Both the position numbers and the translations under genes were made by a program. Of a DNA stretch of 64,000 bases, positions 45,628-56,532 are shown piece after piece. A model generated the notes under the pieces. The model saw only the letters and a program-made list of their open reading frames with translations. It ran no database searches and was not told where the DNA came from. The DNA is from Cellulosilyticum lentocellum DSM 5427. GTDB taxonomy: Bacteria; Bacillota; Clostridia; Lachnospirales; Cellulosilyticaceae. Numbering within the stretch: position 1 is the stretch's first letter; each line of letters starts with the position of its first letter. The stretch is taken from positions 1,757,001-1,821,000 of the forward strand of contig NC_015275.1 of NCBI RefSeq assembly GCF_000178835.2. Reading direction: 5' to 3'.

Positions 45628-45640
45628 GGGGATGAAAGAG

Positions 45641-46852
45641 TTGAAATACGCAGTGATCTTAATGGATGGTATGGCAGATGAGCCTATTGAAGCTTTAAAT
45701 GGACTTACACCACTCGCATATGCCAAAACACCAACGATTGATGAAATAGCAGTAAGAAGTACAATTGGAATGGTACATACTATTCCAGAAGGTTGTGCTA
45801 AAGGTAGTGACACAGCCAACTTAAGTGTATTAGGTTATAATCCACAAAAGTATTATTTTGGACGTAGTCCATTAGAAGCTTTAAGCATGGGAGTAAGCTT
45901 AAAAGAGTCAGATGTTACTTTTAGAACCAATGTGGTGACCTTGAGTGAAGAAGAAGAATATGAAAATAAAATCATTTTAGACCATAGTGCCGATGAAATT
46001 ACAACAGAAGAAGCAAGTGAACTTATAGCAGCAGTAGAAGAAGCATTAGGAAATGAAGCTTGTAAGTTCTATCCTGGTGTAAGTTATAGACATCTTTTAG
46101 TTTGGGATAAGGGGAGTAGAGAGGTTCAACTTACACCGCCACATGATATTCTAGAAAAATGTATTAGAGACTATAAGCCACAAGGTGATCATGCCGAAGA
46201 AATTTGGGACTTGATGAAAAAAAGTTATGATATCTTAAAAGATCATCCAGTGAATATAGCACGTAAAGCTAAAGGTCTTCGTCCAGCAAATAGTATTTGG
46301 ATTTGGGGAGAAGGGATTAAGCCTAGGTTACCACTTTTTGAAGAAAAATATCATGTAGAGGGGGCTGTTATTTCAGCTGTCGACCTTATTAAGGGGATTG
46401 GTATTGGTGCTGGAATGACATCTATTGATGTAGAAGGTGCTACGGGTAATGTTCATACCAACTATAAAGGTAAAGCAGATGCAGCTATTAAATGGCTTAT
46501 AGAAGATAATAAAGATTATGTTTATGTACATTTAGAGGGACCAGACGAATGTGGCCATCGTAATGAAATGGATAATAAGGTTAAAGCTATTGAACTTATT
46601 GATGAAAAAATCATAAAGCCTATTAAAGCAGCTTTAGATGCTTCAGGTGAAGCTTATAAGATCTTAGTTTTGCCAGATCATCCTACACCACTTCGTTTAA
46701 GAACACATACAGGAGATCCGGTTCCCTATATGATTTATGAAAGTGGTAATGACATAGTTAATAAAGCTAATCAGTATACCGAAGAATTTGCGGCAACGAC
46801 AGGTGCTGATATTGAAGAAGGTTATACTTTAATGGATCAATTCTTAGGATGA
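45641..46852 (+). CDS. apgM: Archaeal-type cofactor-independent phosphoglycerate mutase-like protein
   Basis: A 403-residue alkaline-phosphatase-superfamily enzyme. Metal-site motifs are ILMDGMAD near the N-terminus, GSDTANLSVLGY (catalytic Ser/Thr region), HLEGPDECGHRNE and VLPDHPTP. In amino-acid clusters such proteins have been proposed as functional analogues of homoserine kinase. Here it lies between hom and lysC, yet a true thrB follows. I chose the TTG at 45641 because AAGGGGATG is a well-spaced RBS for it and the protein then begins KYAVILMDGMAD like its relatives; the ATG at 45632 is inside that RBS. Confidence 0.82.
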   Translation: MKYAVILMDGMADEPIEALNGLTPLAYAKTPTIDEIAVRSTIGMVHTIPEGCAKGSDTANLSVLGYNPQKYYFGRSPLEALSMGVSLKESDVTFRTNVVTLSEEEEYENKIILDHSADEITTEEASELIAAVEEALGNEACKFYPGVSYRHLLVWDKGSREVQLTPPHDILEKCIRDYKPQGDHAEEIWDLMKKSYDILKDHPVNIARKAKGLRPANSIWIWGEGIKPRLPLFEEKYHVEGAVISAVDLIKGIGIGAGMTSIDVEGATGNVHTNYKGKADAAIKWLIEDNKDYVYVHLEGPDECGHRNEMDNKVKAIELIDEKIIKPIKAALDASGEAYKILVLPDHPTPLRLRTHTGDPVPYMIYESGNDIVNKANQYTEEFAATTGADIEEGYTLMDQFLG

Positions 46853-49215: not shown

Positions 49216-49371
49216 TATTTTCTGTAGTGGTAGAGCCTATAGATAGATTAAAGTATATAAGAAGAAATATATAAAAATTGTAAAAAATAAAGAATAATGT
49301 TAATATATAATAAAATTACAGTTATAGAAAGAAATAAGATGTATAGTTCGAGGATAAAGAGGGGAATAGAT

Positions 49372-50952
49372 TTGAAAAAAAATCTAGAAATTATAAGTAT
49401 TATTGCTGTAGGGTTTGTTTACTTAATAGGCATTACAAAATTACAAATTTCATATGAACAAAGTGTATTACTTACTAAATATACTTGCGATTTTTTGAAA
49501 ATTATCTTTGCTACAAGTATGTTAATTGTAGCTTTGAATAATTTAGATACAGCAGAAAACTTTAGACCAAGCTATTTGGCGATTAGTTATTTTTTACTTA
49601 TTTTCGCAATGATTATTTCTTTAGATTTATATAATAATGGCGTTAACTGGCAACACAATATAAAATATTTAAAAATGAGATGGATTATTAGTTTATCTGA
49701 GATTCTATGGGTTCTTATTTGTGTATTGTTCATTACATCAAAAGTTCAAATGATCAAATGGATAAAATATGAAGTGTTATTGAGTAGCATAATGTGTATT
49801 TATTTATTTTCTGAGTATACACCAGTGGATTTTTTAGTGCGTCAATATAGCTATGAAAGTCTTAGTATTGTTGCACATGTTTTTAGTTTATTAATACTTA
49901 TATTAGGGAACATAGTTTGTATTAATAAGGTTAAATCTCATGTTCAAATATTTAAGTATTATTGGTGTGTATTTATGACCTTACAAGTGATATCTCATGG
50001 CTTATTAATTGTATTTAGTATAAACGGATCTTTAATAAGTTTTGTGGTAGGACAAATAGCTTCTGTTATATGTTATATTTGTATTCTGAATTTTATTGAG
50101 CATATCACACTGACTATAGTATGGAAAGAAATGGATCAAGGTATAGATATCAAGAAAGAACAATTAGATGAAGAGGATTTTGAAAATCAATTACTTATTA
50201 AATCTGCTAATATTATTGAGAAAGAAGTAAAGAAGATTAATGCAAAAGCTCAGCAGCTAAAGATAAAATTAGAATCAGGAACTTGCTATTCTAATATTAG
50301 ATATGTAGAAAAAATCTCAAACAACTGTAATAGATTAACAAAACTTAGTAAAAACATATTAGACTTAAATAATATTGAAAAAGGAAAGGTTAGTATTTGT
50401 CTTCAAATAACTAATCTTTCAGAGCTAGTAGAAATAATCATTGCATCCATAGAGCCTTATATGGAACGACTAGGGATTACGTTAGAATATAAAATGAATA
50501 AACATCCCATTTATTGTGATATAGACTGTGAAGCTATAGAACGTGTTGTGCTTAATCTTATATCGAATGCCATTAAGTATAATAAACAAAAAGGAAGTAT
50601 TCAAGTTTATGTAACTGAAAAAAGACAAAGAGCTTTTTTATGTGTTAAAGATACAGGGATTGGTATTCCAAAAGAAAAACTTCAAACTATTTTTAATCGC
50701 TTTGAGCGAGGAGATTCGGGGCTTGCTAGAATACAAGAGGGAAGTGGATTAGGATTAGCTATAGTCAAATCAATTATTGAGATACATAGAGGTGAGATTA
50801 AGATTCTTAGTACAGAAAATAAAGGAACTTTAGTAAGTATTAGCTTACCAATTTGTGATAGTAATAAGATAGAAGCCTATAAAGCACTTAAAGCAGATGA
50901 AAAAGTCCTACAAAAGAAAATAGAAGTAGAATTTTCCGATTTAGGTATGTAA
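49372..50952 (+). CDS. Membrane histidine-kinase-like protein with intact ATPase domain but no phosphoacceptor His
   Basis: About 526 residues: seven or so membrane helices (1-250), a helical DHp-like region (about 265-345) and a C-terminal HATPase_c domain. The catalytic domain is complete: N-box NLISNA with Asn395/Asn399, DTGIGI from Asp427, and GSGLGLA with Gly457/459/461. The phosphoacceptor helix reads SANIIEKEVKKIN where kinases have N-x-S-H-E-x-K-T-P; Glu283 occupies the His position and no His occurs anywhere in the DHp region. TTG 49372 follows GAGGGG; ATG codons at 49297 and 49339 are alternatives without good RBS. It is 18 bases upstream of a complementary kinase. Confidence 0.8.
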   Translation: MKKNLEIISIIAVGFVYLIGITKLQISYEQSVLLTKYTCDFLKIIFATSMLIVALNNLDTAENFRPSYLAISYFLLIFAMIISLDLYNNGVNWQHNIKYLKMRWIISLSEILWVLICVLFITSKVQMIKWIKYEVLLSSIMCIYLFSEYTPVDFLVRQYSYESLSIVAHVFSLLILILGNIVCINKVKSHVQIFKYYWCVFMTLQVISHGLLIVFSINGSLISFVVGQIASVICYICILNFIEHITLTIVWKEMDQGIDIKKEQLDEEDFENQLLIKSANIIEKEVKKINAKAQQLKIKLESGTCYSNIRYVEKISNNCNRLTKLSKNILDLNNIEKGKVSICLQITNLSELVEIIIASIEPYMERLGITLEYKMNKHPIYCDIDCEAIERVVLNLISNAIKYNKQKGSIQVYVTEKRQRAFLCVKDTGIGIPKEKLQTIFNRFERGDSGLARIQEGSGLGLAIVKSIIEIHRGEIKILSTENKGTLVSISLPICDSNKIEAYKALKADEKVLQKKIEVEFSDLGM

Positions 50953-50970
50953 CAATAGGGGAGTTAAAAA

Positions 50971-52482
50971 ATGAATGAAACTCATAAGGAAATGATGATT
51001 GAATGGTTGGCAGTTGCTCTACTTTATGTAGTGATAAAAGTATGTTTCAGTACGAGTAGTATATATTTTTTTCAATTCGTATTTGGCATTATAGGAACGA
51101 CTCTTAGTATGGGAGCGTATTTGATTACTAATCAACAAAAGAATAAGATTAATATATTAAAAATTATTTCTGTTACAGCTATTTATAAGAATATGGTCAT
51201 TATTTTTATATTTGTAACCCTATTATTAGAAATTAATGTTCCTTTTAATGCTATAAATTCAAGAATACAATTAAACTTACTGGATTTATGGTGTATTTGT
51301 GTTTGTTATATATGGTTATTTAAGCGTATAGGTGCAATAGGGTGTGCCATATTAATAAGTTTAGGCTTTTGTGTTATTACTTTCTCCGGTTTTATATTCC
51401 CGATTGTAGGGCAATCTACAAGCTACATAGGAGGCAAGGTGATTTTAGAAGGACTTATGATACTTATTGGTATTTTCTGCTTAATCATAGTTGTTTTATA
51501 TAAAGATAGATATAAATCTAAGAGTTATCAGGCCTTTTTTCTTTTTTTAATTTGCAAAGTAATCAACCATTTCATGATGTCCTATCAATATATAAGCCAA
51601 GATACCTTATTATTACCACCCTTTATATTGCTTGGTACTATGGAGTATTATTATATTTTAAAATGTGCTTATTTAGCTTGCTGGAAAGAGCCATGGAGAG
51701 AAAAGGTAACTAACTTAAGTAAAGCTGAGTACAGCCTTAATGACAATGCGTATTATCGTGATATGATTGTAAACTTATCCCATGAGCTAAAAACACCTAT
51801 TAATGTGATTAATAGCGCTACTGACCTATTAAGATTGGATTTCGGAAATCAAAAAGAAGTTATGGAAGATTTAAAAGAAATGAGAAGGTACTGCAATGAG
51901 ACAATGAGAATCATAAGAAATATGATAGATATTCATAAATTGCGAGGCGGTTATATCGAAGTTATTTATAACAAGTATAACCTTGTAGCACTTGTGGAAA
52001 ATGTAGTAGAGGCCTATTCTAAAGAATATGCAGATGCAAATCTTATTTTTAATCCCGAGCAAGAAGAAATTTATAATCAGGTGGATAAGCAGCTTTTTCA
52101 GCAAATAATGATGTATTTGATTTATGCTACATTTAAGACGAGAAAAGATAAGGGTGAAATTTATATAGAAATGAAGGATTTATTAGAGGATGAGATACAA
52201 ATTAAGTTATCTCATTCACAAGTGGGATCTATTGAAGAGTACATCATACATCAGGATGAAGTTGAAACGTATAATGCTGATAGTATCATGGCAGTAGAAT
52301 TATTTTACTATATACTTAAATTACATGAGAGTCATATTAAAGTTAGAAGAGAAGATGAAGCAATGGAACTTACCTTATATATAAGAAAAAGTAGGCTCAA
52401 AGAAGTAGAAGAAGTGATATTAGAAGAAAACAATATAGATGACTTAATAGGCACTATTAAGTCTCATTATGTTATAGAGTAG
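50971..52482 (+). CDS. Membrane histidine-kinase-like protein with intact H-box but degenerate ATPase domain
   Basis: 503 residues: seven or eight membrane helices (to about 225), then a canonical DHp H-box NLSHELKTPIN with His271. The C-terminal domain aligns with HATPase_c in length and hydrophobic pattern but lacks every nucleotide motif. The N-box position reads MYLIYAT (Asn replaced by Tyr382 and Ala386), and there is no DxGxG and no GLGL loop. It therefore can be phosphorylated but should not bind ATP. It is cotranscribed with the kinase at 49372, which has the opposite defect. AGGGGAG precedes the ATG. No response regulator is adjacent. Confidence 0.8.
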   Translation: MNETHKEMMIEWLAVALLYVVIKVCFSTSSIYFFQFVFGIIGTTLSMGAYLITNQQKNKINILKIISVTAIYKNMVIIFIFVTLLLEINVPFNAINSRIQLNLLDLWCICVCYIWLFKRIGAIGCAILISLGFCVITFSGFIFPIVGQSTSYIGGKVILEGLMILIGIFCLIIVVLYKDRYKSKSYQAFFLFLICKVINHFMMSYQYISQDTLLLPPFILLGTMEYYYILKCAYLACWKEPWREKVTNLSKAEYSLNDNAYYRDMIVNLSHELKTPINVINSATDLLRLDFGNQKEVMEDLKEMRRYCNETMRIIRNMIDIHKLRGGYIEVIYNKYNLVALVENVVEAYSKEYADANLIFNPEQEEIYNQVDKQLFQQIMMYLIYATFKTRKDKGEIYIEMKDLLEDEIQIKLSHSQVGSIEEYIIHQDEVETYNADSIMAVELFYYILKLHESHIKVRREDEAMELTLYIRKSRLKEVEEVILEENNIDDLIGTIKSHYVIE

Positions 52483-55713: not shown

Positions 55714-56532
55714 TTATGCTGCTAAGAGGCTAATTCTGTATTGCACAGGACTGAGCCAGTCTAGTTTTTGCTTTATTCTTTTTTCATTGTAATACTTTAT
55801 ATATCGTTCTATTGCTGATTTTAATTCCTCATAACTATAATACACAACACCATAATAGATTTCTTGTTTCAGCAAACCAAAAAAATTCTCCATTACTGAA
55901 TTATCATGACAGTTTCCTTTTCTTGACATGCTTTGAAATATTTTTTCTTCTTTCAGTCTGTTTGAATAGGCTTTCATTTGATAAGCCCACCCTTGATCTG
56001 AATGAAAAGTTCTACGATATGGACAATCAGAAGTAATCTCTATTGCTTTTTCTAAAGCCTTCATAACATTCTGAGCCGATGGTTGTCTACCCATTTCAAA
56101 GCTCATTATTTCACCACTACACATATCCATAAAGGGATCTAAATAAAGCTTATGCGTAGTCATATGACCCTTATTATCAATCTCATAATATTTAAATTCT
56201 GTTGTGTCAGTTGTTATCTTCTGATGAGGTATATTCATGTTAAAACGTCTTCTAATTCTATTTGGTGCGACAGTTCCAACTTTACCTTTGTAGGAACTGT
56301 ATTTTCGACTTTTTCTAGTAAATGATGTAACCTGAAGGTTGAACTTCTGCATAATTCTTTGAACCTTCTTCTTATTTACTATATATCCTTGATTCCGAAG
56401 TTCTCCACACATTCTTCTATATCCATAGTTCTTATTATTTTTATGTATTTCTAAAATCTTATCCTCAATTTCTTTGTTTGGATTTTCTTTATTAAAACGC
56501 TTTTGCCAATACATATATGTAGCCTTAGGCAT
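55714..56532 (-). CDS. IS3-family transposase OrfB (DDE catalytic subunit)
   Basis: 272 residues from the first ATG. Integrase-core acidic residues are visible: Asp in TTDTTEF, Asp in FHSDQGWAY and Glu in VMENFFGLLKQE. The N-terminal HTH_21 region (NYGYRRMCGELRNQGY) is also typical. The open frame continues upstream of this ATG for at least ~25 codons with sequence expected of OrfB (ARVINSLRRQFKLKDLL), in the -1 frame relative to OrfA. Translation therefore probably begins by frameshift or at an earlier codon. Confidence 0.9.
   Translation of the reverse strand: MPKATYMYWQKRFNKENPNKEIEDKILEIHKNNKNYGYRRMCGELRNQGYIVNKKKVQRIMQKFNLQVTSFTRKSRKYSSYKGKVGTVAPNRIRRRFNMNIPHQKITTDTTEFKYYEIDNKGHMTTHKLYLDPFMDMCSGEIMSFEMGRQPSAQNVMKALEKAIEITSDCPYRRTFHSDQGWAYQMKAYSNRLKEEKIFQSMSRKGNCHDNSVMENFFGLLKQEIYYGVVYYSYEELKSAIERYIKYYNEKRIKQKLDWLSPVQYRISLLAA

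Follow-up and report, generated by a model that had tools for sequence, protein, structure and literature searches.

Introduction

Can two adjacent membrane sensor kinases, each lacking half of an active site, work as a single enzyme? This question is raised by K and H, two genes in a stretch of 64,000 nucleotides from Cellulosilyticum lentocellum DSM 5427 (contig NC_015275.1, positions 1,757,001 to 1,821,000; hereafter the window), for which an earlier note, made from the letters alone, had inferred an obligate heterodimer that arose by duplication and reciprocal loss. Here, we describe the distribution of the pair, its active-site residues and its ancestry, and then turn to its probable target and to the competing explanations. 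In our view, K and H are probably two different subunits of a single membrane sensor kinase, an obligate heterodimer in which phosphorylated H (H~P) would pass its phosphate to a response regulator, most likely Spo0A, the switch for sporulation; no biochemistry underlies this reading. The features discussed are the following:

49372 to 50952, + strand: K, the predicted ATPase-only membrane kinase subunit; 526 aa, HATPase_c at 5.8e-26, no HisKA, seven orthologues
50116 to 50379, + strand: DHp-like helices of K, with Asn280 at the phosphoacceptor position (codon 50209-50211; alignment and site table)
50395 to 50853, + strand: catalytic ATPase (CA) domain of K, with Asn395, Asn399, Asp427, Gly429, Gly431 and Gly457/459/461, invariant in 7/7
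50971 to 52482, + strand: H, the predicted phosphoacceptor-only membrane subunit; 503 aa, HisKA at 1.2e-8, no HATPase_c
51736 to 51951, + strand: DHp of H, with His271 (codon 51781-51783), the HELKT motif and specificity residues NVSADL
51964 to 52395, + strand: degenerate ATPase-fold domain of H, without N-box Asn399, DxGxG and GxGLG (site table, AF2, Foldseek)

Gene layout and distribution

Both reading frames are intact and lie 18 bp apart, the distance already given in the earlier note. K starts with a TTG codon preceded by AGAGGGG, and open ATG starts are also present at 49297 and 49342. A promoter scan found 17 matches against 23.6 expected, and a terminator scan two against 0.7 expected (a single palindrome within the end of H, counted once per strand). 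The gene order thrB-K-H-tex is found in six genomes, and in another (G005) K-H-tex is followed by the contig end. In three others (G015, G021, G023) thrB directly adjoins tex, without the pair; since relatives lack it, the pair is dispensable. That no response regulator gene is adjacent, as had been claimed, holds beyond the window: there is no space for one between K and tex at any of the seven loci where K and H both occur, and the same is true of the thrB-K interval at the six loci that extend to thrB.

Full-length H is present in eight genomes, with K next to it in seven, while in the eighth the contig stops before K; the side-by-side co-occurrence proposed earlier as a check is therefore met. 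H profile matches of at least 566 bits occur in 8 of 392 genomes of the order (next match, 131 bits), and the K profile reaches at least 630 bits in 6/196 (the following match has 218), all six of which carry H; the seventh K (G016) was found by reading its H locus. Among 391 genomes of the class, H at E<=1e-36 returned nothing besides the window's own copy, and among 291 K at E<=1e-66 returned two other kinases, both intact. The pair spans two genera, and a contig search yielded seven loci, five labelled Cellulosilyticum, one Clostridia bacterium and one Deltaproteobacterial stretch. In the last of these (E 2e-6), the frame contains an H-box and a G2-like motif, but the patterns used found no N- or D-box.

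The next-best matches of either profile, hundreds of bits lower, carry both the His and the ATP site in 33/33 fetched loci, some of which contain the same gene twice (motifs were checked on both strands, and five loci missing a pattern were read by eye). A lone orthologue with H-box and ATP motifs, which would have refuted the proposal, was found among neither the seven K nor the eight H, the intact next-best hits being far weaker. Identity to the window's copies is 29-35% for K and 23-26% for H, as against 78-90% for tex, lysC and thrB. All K and H frames are open; the stops listed for three K are terminal stops, with the match at or just past the end.

Complementary loss of active-site residues

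The split seen in the window recurs across the orthologues, with HATPase_c in 7/7 K and 0/8 H, and HisKA in 8/8 H and 2/7 K (best K E 7.9e-5). Only HisKA or HATPase_c-type domains were found in the Pfam scans of K and H, which gave neither the Hpt nor the CheW domain expected of a CheA-type split kinase. According to the site table, all ATP-site residues are retained in K (7/7), whereas the residue at the His position is N, R, E, Y, Q, K or E and never His; conversely, HExxTP is present in 8/8 H, in which the ATP site is missing. No chain among the seven K and eight H combines the HisKA His with the ATP site. Both proteins thus fail the definition of a canonical HisKA kinase (a single chain bearing both the His and the ATP site) and together satisfy the sequence criterion for a split kinase (an ATP site without phosphoacceptor, and the reverse), joint activity as a complex being inferred; the HE/DxxN/T phosphatase motif of bifunctional split kinases (PMC3591291) is present in the His partner as HExxT (8/8). 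Conservation is complementary as well: in K it is 48.4% in the CA domain versus 25.7% in DHp helix a1, in H 58.6% in DHp a1 versus 27.7% in the CA domain, and in the sensors 18-20%. As judged from sequence, K carries a complete ATP-binding catalytic domain without phosphoacceptor His, and H a phosphoacceptor DHp helix joined to a CA-like domain without an ATP site.

The complementary defects reported in the earlier note are thereby extended to seven K and eight H, and the positions it gave for Asn395, Asp427 and Gly457/459/461 of K and His271 of H were confirmed. Some details need correction. Glu283 of K, named as the residue replacing His, is ruled out by the alignment, which places Asn280 opposite His271. 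The lack of an N-box Asn in H is true of Asn399, gone in all eight, but two H (G017, G016) retain Asn in the Asn395 column. A Cys-Asn said to be shared survives as Cys308, invariant in the eight H, with a variable column in K. Random rather than conserved substitutions of the His had been named as a refuting sign, and the K column is indeed variable; we do not count this against the heterodimer, since a position that is never His, beside an invariant ATPase, is the expected look of an abandoned phosphoacceptor. A pseudogene or an assembly error was also considered and rejected, the same defects recurring across independent assemblies and species.

Predicted structure and origin

Single-chain structure predictions, of modest confidence (pLDDT 63 and 71), retain the alpha/beta element order in the C-terminal domain of H. 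Foldseek matches H to HK853 and RetS, with RetS giving the highest target-normalised TM-score (TMt up to 0.74) among the 50 matches listed; the closest solved relatives of the K and H profiles also include HK853. The best NCBIfam match of both window proteins is NF047874 (MASE3 sensor kinases), matched by 8/8 H and, in K, up to the model end. The scores (261 and 104 bits for K and H) are far under the cut-off of 560, and each protein differs from this family in lacking half of the active site. Spo0B has a SPOB_a type domain, and its gene lies between the ribosomal L27 and obg genes. A Spo0B identity for H is unsupported: H matches HisKA and not SPOB_a, and its locus is thrB-tex.

K and H align across 449 columns and form one clade (support 93/86), which groups with orphan kinases (96/86); the support for K+H is under the strict threshold, and H is divergent. 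The K and H subtrees are nearly congruent. These analyses support K and H being full-length paralogues within a clade of orphan kinases, in agreement with the duplication inferred before; the orphan-kinase ancestry is an addition to it. The sensor halves match at 94.8% (E 5.4e-8) in a profile-profile comparison; reversed profiles reached 0.2-0.3%, and none of 100 block-shuffles exceeded 2.6%. When a sensor profile was compared with single sequences, 77.6, 74.5 and 24.3% stand out among 15 comparisons; the other 12 gave 0.1-4.2%, similar to the 29 control kinases (best 2.3%), and sensor homology is accordingly weak at the single-sequence level. The sensors, described earlier as different, are indeed fast-evolving and diverged, but are mutually related when compared as profiles.

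Spo0A as the likely target

Like orphan sporulation kinases, the pair, flanked by thrB and tex, has no response regulator gene nearby. Specificity positions in DHp helix 1 were placed using a KinA stretch. At these six positions the eight H read NVSADL, NVSADI, NVSAEL, NVSADI, NVSVQV, NVSAEI, NVSGDI and NVSAEV, with N, V and S at the first three throughout. The mapping is supported by the regulator-linked kinases of the window's genome, which read TAGYQL or TAGYDL, like TAGFQL of KinA. This comparison comprised 20 kinases with a recognised H-box, 17 of which have a regulator within 2 kb and three of which lie in stretches that contain none; two more frames, in which no H-box was recognised, were left out (the sample consisted of 31 stretches, with 32 of the 53 HATPase_c matches, plus Spo0A). 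Asn at His+7 occurs in 0/17 regulator-linked kinases and in 3/3 orphans examined, and also in the hybrid kinase L141 and in L143/L144 (regulator 241 bp away).

In Clostridium acetobutylicum, the corresponding residues are NVSAQV in CA_C0323 and NISAQL in CA_C0903 (PMC6136694 Table 1); the six positions are our own mapping of the letters given there. H thus has specificity residues of the direct-phosphorylation type when compared with these two kinases. CA_C3319 differs: it phosphorylates Spo0A yet reads SVGLQL (PMC6136694). CA_C0323, for its part, has not been proven to act directly (PMC11210211). Spo0A is present in the window's genome and was found in 7/8 H genomes, with no match in G016, which has the pair (genome 75% complete). 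Because H resembles CA_C0323 and CA_C0903 in these residues, Spo0A is its likely target, an addition to what had been proposed.

Weighing the explanations

The heterodimer draws on the complementary motif loss and conservation, the pairing, the shared clade and the intact next-best relatives. H might instead be a phosphotransferase or phosphatase in the manner of Spo0B or RetS, acting without K on Spo0A or some other kinase; K would then be an independent modulator that binds ATP without phosphorylating anything. The RetS-like fold of H and its HExxT are compatible with this, as are RetS itself, a CA-degenerate protein that acts on GacS (PMC5992135), and PtpA/PtpB of Clostridium difficile, which seem to be mainly phosphatases and perhaps hetero-oligomers (PMC11210211). 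We nevertheless regard it as unlikely, as it leaves unexplained both the full ATP site of K (7/7) without a His (0/7) and the joint clade and adjacency of K and H wherever both places are visible.

That same adjacency and co-occurrence speak against K and H each pairing mainly with other, intact orphan kinases and tuning them, to which we give little credence even though same-clade orphans with Asn at His+7 are encoded in the genome (L112, L114, L119) and GacS/RetS provides a precedent (PMC5992135). Rapid divergence relative to tex, lysC and thrB could also signal two duplicated pseudo-kinases decaying under relaxed selection without a joint function; every frame is open, however, each protein has one half with invariant catalytic residues, and two genera share the pair, the K and H subtrees being nearly congruent, so that decay is scarcely tenable.

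In the heterodimer that we prefer, K and H, both derived from one ancestral orphan kinase and kept together, very probably function solely as a mixed pair, heterodimer formation and phosphotransfer being inferred. Their DHp hairpins would form a mixed four-helix bundle, and the catalytic domain of K would act in trans to phosphorylate His271 of H. H~P would then serve a response regulator whose gene lies at another locus; Spo0A is the likeliest, and H, through HExxT, may also dephosphorylate it. With two diverged membrane sensors, the pair could answer two inputs. As a counterpoint, HK853 autophosphorylates in cis (PMC4734776), and a cis-type kinase of this kind could not work if split. More speculatively, and with the balance of our judgement against it, the K-H dimer may be a kinase and unpaired H a Spo0A~P phosphatase, such that commitment to sporulation becomes ultrasensitive or bistable, governed by the ratio and pairing of the two sensors; models of split bifunctional kinases predict that switch-like responses are possible (PMC3591291), and these would suit such a decision.

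If the heterodimer is real, nature has made and kept an EnvZ-type trans-phosphorylation experiment, with two half-dead kinases alive only together, and the pair would be a clean system for studying DHp heterodimer specificity and how paralogues turn into obligate partners. It would also provide a specific Spo0A input that can be put to the test in cellulose-degrading relatives of Epulopiscium; the Spo0A kinases of Epulopiscium itself were still unidentified in 2012 (PMC3416734).

Comparison with known systems

A limited literature search found no natural membrane HisKA pair derived from reciprocal loss, and the available parts of two papers on clostridial orphan Spo0A kinases describe no reciprocal halves (PMC11210211, PMC6136694). 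CAC0323 and CAC0903 resemble H in DHp specificity residues and in having no adjacent regulator (PMC6136694); unlike K and H, they are tabled, with CAC0437 and CAC3319, as having both HisKA and HATPase (PMC11210211). For PtpA/PtpB, hetero-oligomers have been suggested, and the His of PtpB is dispensable (PMC11210211). RetS of Pseudomonas aeruginosa is, like H, a degenerate-ATPase kinase acting on a partner kinase, but it restrains GacS, which is competent for autophosphorylation (PMC5992135), whereas K has no His.

ATPase and phosphoacceptor His also reside on separate proteins in Synechocystis PilL-N/PilL-C (Hik36/Hik43) and in CheA3/CheA4 of Rhodobacter sphaeroides, neither of which autophosphorylates alone (PMC3591291, PMC7656254). 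Those pairs belong to the CheA class, in which P1/HPt is a domain of its own, and they lack entire domains; CheA3/CheA4 are part of a cytoplasmic cluster. K and H, both membrane kinases, descend from the HisKA type and have kept every domain, while reciprocally losing active-site residues. A precedent for the chemistry of the proposed mechanism is a mixture of an EnvZ G2-box mutant with H243A, in which autophosphorylation proceeds in trans, one subunit giving ATP and the other the His (PMC4734776); that heterodimer was engineered by mutation, whereas K and H are natural and conserved across species.

Complementary active-site loss in an adjacent kinase pair

Two genes 18 bp apart, lying between thrB (homoserine kinase) and tex on the single 4,714,237-base contig of the Cellulosilyticum lentocellum genome, encode the putative membrane subunits K and H.

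49372-50952, + strand: K, ATPase-only subunit; TTG start; HATPase_c match (5.8e-26), no HisKA match
50971-52482, + strand: H, phosphoacceptor-only subunit; HisKA match (1.2e-8), no HATPase_c match

Neither protein has both domains and no response regulator gene adjoins the pair, as the earlier note had read from the sequence. In K, the ATP-site residues Asn395, Asn399, Asp427, Gly429, Gly431, Gly457, Gly459 and Gly461 are invariant in 7/7 orthologues. Its phosphoacceptor position is occupied by Asn280 in the window's copy and by R, E, Y, Q, K and E in the other six; contrary to the earlier note, the residue that aligns with His is thus not Glu283. The expectation of conserved substitutions is met in that His never occurs and the ATP site is invariant, but not in the replacing residue, which varies. 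In H, the phosphoacceptor His is found in 8/8 orthologues, followed by E at +1, T at +4 and P at +5. The reported lack of an N-box Asn holds for the Asn399 equivalent (0/8) but not fully for that of Asn395 (kept in 2/8); of the three G2 glycine columns, the first two have Gly in 1/8 each and the third in 0/8, and in the window's H nothing aligns to the G1 glycines and aspartate, in agreement with the reported absence of DxGxG.

Mean pairwise identity in K is 48.4% for the ATPase domain versus 25.7% for DHp helix 1, and in H 58.6% for helix 1 versus 27.7% for the ATPase-like domain; each protein is therefore most constrained in exactly the half lost by its partner. Next-best matches of either profile are ordinary kinases, with both His and ATP site in 33/33 fetched loci (some of which contain one gene twice).

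Distribution and gene order

In a family-wide search, full-length H was found in 8/24 genomes: that of the window, its congeners G001-G005, and two members of a second genus, G016 and G017. Co-occurrence side by side was confirmed: K directly precedes H in 7/7 genomes with sequence there (the G001 contig stops before the K position and was not counted), tex follows H in 8/8, and thrB directly precedes K in six, the G005 contig stopping before thrB. A contig database search placed H on six contigs and K on five of these, the sixth stopping before K. Orthologues are well separated from all other matches (H, 566-656 versus at most 131 bits in 392 genomes of the order; K, 630-675 versus at most 218 bits in 196 genomes), and H is present in 6/6 genomes with a K orthologue in the 196-genome search, which evidently did not include G016. 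Stops inside three K matches are terminal stops, the matches reaching or slightly overrunning the gene end. At 1e-36, no H besides the window's own was found in 391 genomes of the class.

The pair is absent from G015, G021 and G023, where thrB lies directly beside tex, and from G019, where an unrelated small ORF separates them; in G007, G008, G011 and G020 a different gene precedes tex. Since relatives have the thrB-tex site without the pair, it was either gained at this site in the lineage or lost in several relatives. K and H are 29-35% and 23-26% identical to the window's copies and diverge far faster than their neighbours in the same loci where present (tex 78-82%, lysC 84-90%, thrB 80-86%). 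The sensor halves diverge fastest (mean pairwise identity 19.8% in K, 17.8% in H), which may reflect rapidly changing input signals.

Elsewhere in this region, a phosphoglycerate mutase-like gene (45632-46852) precedes lysC in the window, G015, G017, G019, G021 and G023, and is not at that place in G002, G003 and G004. An IS3-like transposase gene (HTH_21 + rve; 55714-56532, - strand) lies just downstream of an ECF transporter gene.

Common origin of K and H

The proposed duplication is supported by a profile alignment of K with H over 449 columns (99.7%, E 3.4e-27) and by a DHp-CA tree (phosphoacceptor hairpin plus ATPase domain), in which K (100/98), H (100/100) and K+H (93/86) form clades. 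K+H groups with ten orphan-type kinases (96/86), separate from 18 regulator-linked or hybrid kinases, and the K and H subtrees are concordant except for the position of the window and G002. Support for K+H is under the strict threshold, and the sister relation therefore leans on the sensors too. The sensors had been said to differ: both evolve fast, but a comparison of their profiles matches the two halves (94.8%, E 5.4e-8), compared with 0.2-0.3% when either profile is reversed and at most 2.6% over 100 block-shuffles. With single sequences, three of 15 comparisons stand out (77.6, 74.5 and 24.3%); the other 12 (0.1-4.2%) are close to 2.3%, the top value among the N-termini of 29 other kinases.

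Orphan-type kinases of the order (fetched stretches L112, L114, L141, L142, L143, L145 and L146) have in common a C-terminal tail that reads [IV]EFSDIY or a near variant; this tail was not found in the 17 regulator-linked kinases examined of the window's genome. A version is kept in 4/7 K (window 50917-50949), with a remnant in H; it is possibly a docking element.

Proposed mechanism and likely target

In the proposed model, K would provide ATP and H the His, with phosphorylation in trans. AF2 models, built from shallow alignments (mean pLDDT 63 and 71), predict a DHp-like hairpin and CA-like element order in both proteins. The chief risk to this split-pair reading, by analogy, is kinship with HK853, which both profiles match as one of their nearest solved relatives and which, with RetS, is among the best Foldseek matches listed for H; according to the available part of PMC4734776, HK853 autophosphorylates in cis. 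If K and H do form a kinase, trans action would be obligatory, unlike in HK853. Unpaired H could act as a Spo0A~P phosphatase, since HExxT is conserved in H.

Spo0A is the likely target of H, as judged from specificity residues without phosphotransfer data. At the six helix 1 positions mapped in this analysis (His+7, +8, +11, +12, +14 and +15), the window's H reads NVSADL, with N, V and S at the first three in 8/8. Table 1 of PMC6136694, a source available in part, gives NVSAQV for CA_C0323, NISAQL for CA_C0903, SVGLQL for CA_C3319 and TxGFQ(L/I) for KinA-E of Bacillus subtilis. The same source describes phosphorylation of Spo0A by CA_C0903 and CA_C3319, and the Asn signature is therefore unnecessary for this activity; direct action of CA_C0323 is described as uncertain in what is available of PMC11210211. 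Asn at His+7 occurs in 0/17 regulator-linked kinases examined versus 3/3 orphans, with exceptions in the hybrid kinase of stretch L141 and in the L143/L144 kinases, whose regulator is 241 bp off.

Spo0A is found in 7/8 genomes with H, without a match in G016 (75% complete), and a single Spo0A_C match is present in the window's genome. A canonical Spo0B was not seen among the four SPOB_a matches of this genome (frames of 291-446 aa), because one frame, read fully, includes an ATPase domain and HATPase_c matches lie beside two more. A 287-aa kinase near genome position 606,500 (L130:3461-4324) combines SPOB_a and ATPase domains, with a receiver-domain regulator a few genes downstream.

Comparison with known systems

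Split CheA kinases are known, as the earlier note says: CheA3/CheA4 (PMC3591291) and PilL-N/PilL-C (PMC7656254) are established, as far as the accessible portions of these papers go. According to PMC3591291, 1556 of 42417 HisKA proteins lack HATPase, and 711 of these are put forward there as candidate bifunctional split kinases, for which its available text gives no partners; its models of bifunctional split kinases allow ultrasensitive or bistable behaviour. Hetero-oligomer action has been suggested for Clostridioides difficile PtpA/PtpB (PMC11210211, in part), and the C. perfringens kinases CPR1953/CPR1954 seem, from partial sources, to function independently. Consistent with the claim that no system of this form had been described, no naturally occurring HisKA pair in which each partner has lost the active-site half kept by the other was among the matches listed from mainly open-access literature (titles and abstract openings), and the term 'heterodimeric histidine kinase' had no match there. 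An engineered parallel exists: in the available part of PMC4734776, EnvZ without its G2 box mixed with EnvZ H243A gives autophosphorylation in trans; K and H would be the natural counterpart, with ATP from K and His from H.
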